The notes under the pieces are model-generated. The model was given only the letters and a program-made list of their open reading frames with translations. It did no database searches and was not told the origin of the DNA. A stretch of 64,000 bases of DNA from Calditrichia bacterium (lineage in GTDB: Bacteria; Calditrichota; Calditrichia; RBG-13-44-9; J075). The translations under genes were made by a program, and so were the position numbers. This document shows positions 55,256 to 56,145 of the stretch, piece after piece (the first letter of the stretch is position 1; each line of letters starts with the position of its first letter). Location of the stretch: positions 62,001-126,000 of the forward strand of contig JANQQU010000025.1 in assembly GCA_028284905.1 (NCBI GenBank), given 5' to 3'.

Positions 55256-55327
55256 TTGTGGAAAATGATTTGCAGGGATGAAGAATTCCCGGGCGATTTC
55301 GTGGAATTATGTATATGCAATGTTGTT

Positions 55328-55404
55328 GGTGTAGGGGGGGAAGCATTCCTGGGCAAGATCGTGATTATATCTCCTGCTTTGAGATGGAATGCTTCCCCTA
55401 CACC
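55328..55404. repeat. REP-like palindrome 1, overlaps RAYT stop codon
   Basis: The left arm (55328-55349) and right arm (55386-55404) share GAAGCATTCC / GGAATGCTTC and GTGTAGGGG / CCCCTACAC. The right arm supplies the TAG stop (55398-55400, complement) of the RAYT gene. Confidence 0.8.
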
Positions 55405-55988
55405 TTTAATACATTGTTCAAAATATATCGGCGGACATTGTACAATTCATATTCATTGCGAATAATCCGTTCATAAAAATTGCGTTGCCATAATTTTTTG
55501 CCGGGTGTTTTACGGATTCGGTTTATTTTGCGGGTGGTTACCGATGAAAAATTTTGGATGATGGCGGATAACGATCCGGGTTTGGTGCCATTAGGGCGTT
55601 TTGTCGATGGTGTCGGTGCATGTAGGGACGAAGCATTCCCTTCGGTGATAGTGGATTCACTCTCGGGATTTTTGAAGGAATGCTTCATCCCTACATGACG
55701 CGTCGTCGTATCCTCATCCCCCACCAACCACAAAATTCCATGAAAATGATTTGGCATGGCCACGAATTCATCTAATTTCGCATTCTGAAAATGGGATGGT
55801 ATTTTTTCCCAATGATAGGCGATTATTTTTCCGAAATCATTCAATATCATTTTCTGGTTTCGGATTTCCCCTAAAAGACATTCCCGATTTTTAATACAAA
55901 TGGTTACAAAATATGCACCGGGGCTGGAATAATCATATCCCTTTAACCGGATCGATTTACGATTGTGTTTTTGCGGATCATATTTCAT
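55398..55988 (-). CDS. REP-associated tyrosine transposase (RAYT, Y1 HUH family)
   Basis: A 196-residue single-strand DNA transposase. It has the usual N terminus (RLKGYDYSSPGAYFVTICIKN), the HUH motif in AMPNHFHGILW and the C-terminal region with the catalytic Tyr (WQRNFYERIIRNEYELYNVRRY). RAYTs cut and move REP palindromes. Residues about 98-124 are encoded by a REP-like palindrome inside the gene (55619-55697), which keeps the frame open, and its stop codon lies in another palindrome. The frame is intact, so the enzyme may be active. The N-terminal SD is weak. Confidence 0.93.
   Translation of the reverse strand: MKYDPQKHNRKSIRLKGYDYSSPGAYFVTICIKNRECLLGEIRNQKMILNDFGKIIAYHWEKIPSHFQNAKLDEFVAMPNHFHGILWLVGDEDTTTRHVGMKHSFKNPESESTITEGNASSLHAPTPSTKRPNGTKPGSLSAIIQNFSSVTTRKINRIRKTPGKKLWQRNFYERIIRNEYELYNVRRYILNNVLKV
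55619..55697. repeat. REP-like palindrome 2, inside the RAYT coding sequence
   Basis: Left arm 55619-55639 and right arm 55677-55697 are 21 bases each with one mismatch and carry the same GAAGCATTCC core and TGTAGGGA ends as palindrome 1. It is translated in frame as about 27 residues of the transposase. Confidence 0.8.
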
Positions 55989-56016
55989 TTTCTACATGTC
56001 ATCCTTTTGATTTTTT

Positions 56017-56086
56017 GTGGGGGCGAAGCATTCCTGTTATATTATGTTGCCGAAAAAAGTATTTGCCAGGAATGCTTCGCCCCCAC
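56017..56086. repeat. REP-like palindrome 3, 5' of RAYT
   Basis: Exact 20-base arms (56017-56036 and 56067-56086), with the core GAAGCATTCC and GGGGGCG ends. The spacer holds TGCCGAAAAAA, which recurs in the partial copy at 56106. Confidence 0.8.
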
Positions 56087-56103
56087 ACCAAATATCACCC
56101 TAT

Positions 56104-56145
56104 ATTGCCGAAAAAATGTTTGCCAGGAATGCTTCATTCCCAGGC
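56104..56145. repeat. REP-like partial copy
   Basis: A direct repeat of the right half of palindrome 3 (TGCCGAAAAAA, then TTTGCCAGGAATGCTTC), ending in TTCCCAGGCA instead of the G/C-run. It looks like a tandem duplication with a decayed arm. The rest of 56146-56385 is gene-free. Confidence 0.65.

Follow-up and report, generated by a model that had tools for sequence, protein, structure and literature searches.

The window, meaning the whole 64-kb stretch of DNA that was analyzed, carries on its minus strand (positions 55398-55988) an open reading frame of 196 aa that was identified as a RAYT (TnpAREP) gene by its HuH, WQ, and Tyr motifs, its family match, and its fold. The HuH motif reads MPNHFHG (MPNHFH at residues 78-83, NHFH at residues 80-83), WQ is W167-Q168, and the tyrosine helix, YILNNVLKV, bears Tyr188. 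The protein matched the NCBIfam family NF047646 (REP_Tyr_transpos) with an E value of 1.4e-16, although its 60.7 bits fall short of the curated cutoff of 80, and it scored 22.8 bits for PF01797 against a cutoff of 23. The fold search was decisive: the top PDB match of the AlphaFold model (mean pLDDT 81.6, core mostly ≥90) was 4ER8, a TnpAREP bound to a REP hairpin (Foldseek E 1.7e-5), a structure for which the PDB sequence search alone gave an E value of 0.2, too weak to count. Residues 95-119 and 121-131 of the model had pLDDT values below 50 and are predicted to form a disordered loop.

The REP core GAAGCATTCC, which pairs with GGAATGCTTC, has 7 exact occurrences in the window, all inside 55340-56135 (chance, ~0.12). 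The sequence-only reading of this DNA had counted four palindromes or partial copies flanking or lying in the transposase gene; their placement holds, but the count is three full palindromes and two partial copies. The internal REP (55619-55697; arms CATGTAGGGATGAAGCATTCC / GGAATGCTTCGTCCCTACATG around a 37-nt spacer) is translated as 27 codons in the frame GTA-GGG, giving residues 98-124 with the peptide VGMKHS...GNASSLH, much as had been proposed (about 27 residues), and these residues fall within the predicted disordered stretch 95-131. The upstream REP (56010-56093) lies directly 5' of the ribosome-binding region, and half of it is duplicated in tandem as a partial REP made of the spacer and one arm (56101-56142). 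On the other side of the gene lie the 3' REP (55328-55406) and a degenerate partial arm, TGCAGGGATGAAGAATTCC, with one core mismatch (~55271-55290). The internal and 3' copies have double feet GTAG...CTAC and the upstream copy GTGG...CCAC, all of which fit 5' GT[AG]G and 3' C[TC]AC. Folded as single-stranded DNA, the three full palindromes had z scores of -6.6 to -8.0, compared with +0.5 and -0.7 for two control segments of the same length from the gene.

The 3' REP also shapes the end of the protein: the TAG stop at 55398-55400 (CTA on the plus strand) lies in its GTAG foot, as the sequence-only reading had recognized for the stop, and the REP also encodes the final residue, V196, which is W in relatives. 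The C terminus thus reads NVLKV-stop (55398-55415, minus strand), whereas the usual tail in relatives is NPLKWE..., and P193 and W196, nearly invariant among 52 aligned relatives, are both lost. Because the abutting REP has removed the normal C-terminal tail, these two residues included, the enzyme encoded here may, judging from its sequence, be impaired and this gene copy perhaps decaying.

RAYT-flanking REP palindromes recur elsewhere in the host genome, which is a criterion for a RAYT / TnpAREP. The assembly (8.55 Mb, 93 contigs) contains only 9 exact GAAGCATTCC palindromes, of which 3 lie within 820 bp at the RAYT locus (binomial P ~7e-11) and another 3 on a 17-kb segment of contig C13. 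Two more are read in frame inside the paralogous hybrid sensor kinases L005 and L006 (G000:C45:50626-50682 and C60:4152-4208; peptide PQVGAKHSFSETES...NASHLPG), in what the domains read from the sequence mark as the kinase-receiver linker. A Ser/Thr kinase-like gene adjoining the RAYT of the relative G002 also contains the same REP in frame (L052:4043-4120, WYBG01000503.1; VVGAKHSGQAIPSKQNDIVGNASPLQ), and together the three kinases indicate that in-frame insertion into linkers is generally tolerated. The host also has a second, distant RAYT-like fragment (L011, G000:C13:131968-132228), in which another palindrome, GTAGAGAAAATTCA / TGAATTTTCTCTAC, follows the HuH motif.

A REP inside its own RAYT gene is an already published phenomenon, of which the window locus is a further member. 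Quentin et al. 2018 (PMC6006769) described TnpAREP subclass 2.4 (Bertels group 4) as the one marked out by in-frame REPs between HuH and Tyr, with double-foot REPs both flanking and in frame within tnpAREP, and viewed the insert as peripheral, perhaps with little impact. The window gene shares with that subclass the HuH signature NH[IFV]H (here NHFH) and WQ, a Tyr motif that agrees in part, a variable HuH-Tyr insertion, flanking GT[AG]G double-foot REPs, and in-frame REPs; these motifs and REP features make it a probable member of group 4 / subclass 2.4. It differs in ending YILNNV...stop rather than in YIxNNP plus a tail, since the REP abuts and gives the stop (Y188 is followed by ILNNV with P193 replaced; the relatives L013 and L015 read YIIDNP), and in having a REP with a long 37-nt spacer that belongs to a low-copy family (9 exact palindromes). 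Intragenic GTAG REPs, some supplying TAG stops, were described in 2013 (PMC3733652) and resemble those in the window in their GTAG foot, in providing a TAG stop for a neighboring open reading frame, and in being translated inside genes, but most of the targets listed there are unrelated genes (repair genes, for instance), whereas the target here is the cognate transposase. Rickettsia palindromic elements (RPE) are likewise palindromic repeats in frame in protein genes, yet they end in CGTC (PMC3733652) and hit many unrelated genes; the CGTC tag was absent from the window REPs, whose feet are GTAG or GTGG and whose kind is found chiefly in RAYT genes. IS200/IS605 TnpA has the same fold, HuH/Tyr chemistry, and hairpins near the gene, but those hairpins are subterminal and outside the gene, unlike the internal REP of the window. 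New here are the covariation of the arms, the codivergence of stem and protein, the matching of the linker stem to the gene's own flanks, and the genomes with a sole copy; a limited search of the open-access literature found no report of any of these.

Three orthologues of the same family (L012, L013, and L015; 66 to 69% identical) have a REP at the position and in the frame seen in the window, with the peptide VGAKHSGQPLSSE...GNASPLH; one of them, L012, is frameshifted close to its C terminus. Two of these three, and L132 from another family (61% identical), have internal REPs built of tandem arm-plus-spacer units that keep the frame and share a single 3' arm (L013:1815-1962, L015:1815-1950, and L132:1690-1830); such units may record strand-transfer events. 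The internal copies of L132 have the stem GATGCATTC in place of GAAGCATTC, and GATGC replaces GAAGC in its internal and 3' flanking copies alike, with matching spacers; both stem types are present in L015, and the stem of L135 and L136 is GACGCATGC. One stem pair thereby takes three compensated states, A-T, T-A, and C-G, within the window clade.

A wider survey of 80 genome loci and 40 phylum genomes yielded 90 RAYT open reading frames with recognizable HuH, W, and Tyr motifs; these relatives span many phyla and, having been retrieved for their resemblance to the window clade, do not constitute a random sample of RAYTs. An inverted repeat with a score of at least 10 lay in the HuH-to-W linker of 64 of 89 relatives but in only 1 of 89 N-terminal controls of equal length, and at least 14 nt were shared between linker and flank in 27 of 89, compared with 0 of 89 for the control. 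The linker palindrome is usually perfect and 28 bp long, GTAGGGGCnnnnnn / nnnnnnGCCCCTAC, and in most relatives it lies at a homologous position, 4 to 15 residues after HuH. When arms were placed by their feet only, that is, without selection for pairing, the inner seven pairs were complementary in 78% of cases, compared with a mean of 38% and a maximum of 46% over 2000 permutations, and several Watson-Crick pair types were found at every inner stem position. The linker stem recurred in the flanks of its own gene in 26 of 85 cases (permuted mean 2.7, maximum 9). Stem similarity followed core protein identity (Mantel rho 0.28, reached in 0 of 2000 permutations), rising from 2.2 of 7 matches at <45% core identity to 6.4 of 7 at >70%; these permutation tests are all inflated to some degree by sequence relatedness. 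At 60 to 70% protein identity, stem likeness was 0.56, compared with 0.35 for four-fold third positions, and one stem, GCGAAAAA, is common to a clade of Thermodesulfobacteriota, a gammaproteobacterium, and the phylum of the window itself. In the orthologues, the internal segment is REP DNA and not protein sequence conserved in the usual way: its palindromy persists although stem, peptide, and frame vary. The 4ER8 and NF047646 matches and the likeness of the internal REP to the flanking ones bear out the original identification of a RAYT gene with its cognate, translated REP.

The palindrome was weak or absent in 25 of 89 relatives, and its presence changed 17 times on the tree, 5 of these changes being forced by starred branches; the internal palindrome is therefore not essential, and the mapping did not separate a single origin from multiple ones. 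The idea that a broken HuH motif leads to loss of the palindrome, raised by L134 (HYFH), was rejected because L134 retains a 15-bp stem, GGGCGAAGGATTTCC / GGAAATCCTTCGCCC. Two loci showed other arrangements. In L077, a different perfect 27-bp inverted repeat, CGGGGCGAGGACAATAGTCGTCGGGGC, follows HuH in the RAYT linker and has no GTAG foot. In L128, 33 nt are common to the upstream flank and a linker without a palindrome; since the flank copy is a GTAG REP with a 21-bp stem, the gene may have taken up no more than the inner part of that REP.

The closed genome G007 has three copies of the 28-mer, all at the RAYT locus: one inside the gene and one on each side of it. Across the surveyed genomes, many of which are incomplete metagenome assemblies, copies were counted with the double-foot pattern GTAGGGRCN(11-14)GYCCCTAC, so that the counts cover REPs that have these feet and a short spacer. 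Nine genomes had exactly one pattern palindrome, inside the RAYT linker: five from the set picked for internal palindromes (L057, L063, L070 [Thermus scotoductus], L117, and L130) and four from the unselected phylum genomes (L135, L137, L141, and L143). In the unselected genomes, 6 of 50 pattern sites fell in RAYT linkers, compared with ~0.01 expected under rough assumptions. Together with the covariation of the arms, the codivergence of the stem, and its match to the gene's own flanks, these counts make it less likely that the internal copies were inserted by chance out of a large pool of REPs.

How the palindrome came to be kept can be read in several ways. The sequence-only reading had proposed that the transposase could regulate itself through structure in its mRNA or in single-stranded DNA; at the mRNA level, the transcript hairpin would control RAYT translation or stability. 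Strong hairpins are indeed predicted inside the gene and shortly before its start codon, and control by a 5'-untranslated-region structure has a reported precedent in ISPpu9 (PMC8450116). Mismatches in the stems gave this proposal no support, however: they showed no sense-strand preference for G:U (19 G:T versus 23 A:C). The hairpin also lies in the middle of the gene, where structure is melted by elongating ribosomes, and we regard regulation of this kind as improbable. Less credible still, indeed hardly to be expected, is that the REP-encoded loop (VGAxxSPL-like) is itself the selected feature. The frame that encodes VG is favored (feet were read as GTA-GGG in 64 cases, GT-AGG in 18, and the third frame in 4), but shared ancestry accounts for this bias, and TAG closes the third frame, so that the 4 feet read in it must be GTTG. 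Two frames with very different peptides, across which the DNA palindromy persists, argue against selection on the peptide, as does the predicted disorder of the loop.

With these two readings set aside, maintained DNA palindromy (through selection and/or homogenization) and repeated passive insertion remain. The latter, argued in print in PMC6006769, holds that REPs insert frequently near the transposase, that insertions keeping the frame survive in the flexible HuH-Tyr loop, and that the inner copy has no function. It draws on the predicted disorder of that loop, on the tandem partial duplications with multiple-of-three spacing in L013, L015, and L132, and on the roughly 17 changes in palindrome presence; the in-frame REPs in kinase linkers keep it a serious rival, and the covariation of the arms can also arise from repeated replacement by new REPs. 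We nevertheless consider it clearly less than an even bet: REP-poor genomes still have a copy in the RAYT linker (the 6 of 50 sites above, on the rough expectation given), its position is homologous in most relatives, and the stem type has diverged along with the protein across deep distances yet remains palindromic.

The reading we favor, at a probability of about 0.55, is that this is a group 4 / subclass 2.4 RAYT carrying its internal REP as an inherited, maintained substrate in cis. A copy of the cognate double-foot REP (GTAG...CTAC) sits, in frame, in the predicted disordered loop that separates HuH from the tyrosine helix, and more copies stand at the two ends of the gene; the internal one would travel with the RAYT lineage as a resident substrate. 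Its palindromy would be kept by use as a single-stranded DNA substrate and/or by local homogenization with the flanking REPs, and enzyme and REP would stay linked through horizontal transfer even where the genome has no other REP. It might also provide feedback control, with the enzyme binding or nicking its own gene while that DNA is single-stranded. That the internal REP would serve as a substrate in cis is suggested by what is known of the family and by analogy with E. coli TnpAREP, which in vitro cleaves single-stranded REPs and contacts GTAG (PMC8266576). Comparison with more than 80 relatives suggests that the inner copy belongs to the gene by inheritance and is not an accident. A bolder form of this reading, whose chances we would put a little short of even, extends it to group 4 RAYTs at large: the internal REP would be an ancestral, selected cis-element, a substrate stored in the enzyme's own reading frame, held palindromic by compensatory change over very long times and in many cases without any other REP in the genome, an arrangement under which horizontal transfer could never part enzyme and site.

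RAYTs are domesticated transposases, and we know of no benefit that they bring to the cell. Should the inner REP prove to be something the gene maintains rather than debris, enzyme and substrate would be inherited as one unit, a DNA structure would be preserved even though the peptide read from it can change freely, and breaking the stem by synonymous substitutions would give a simple test of what a RAYT needs its REPs for.
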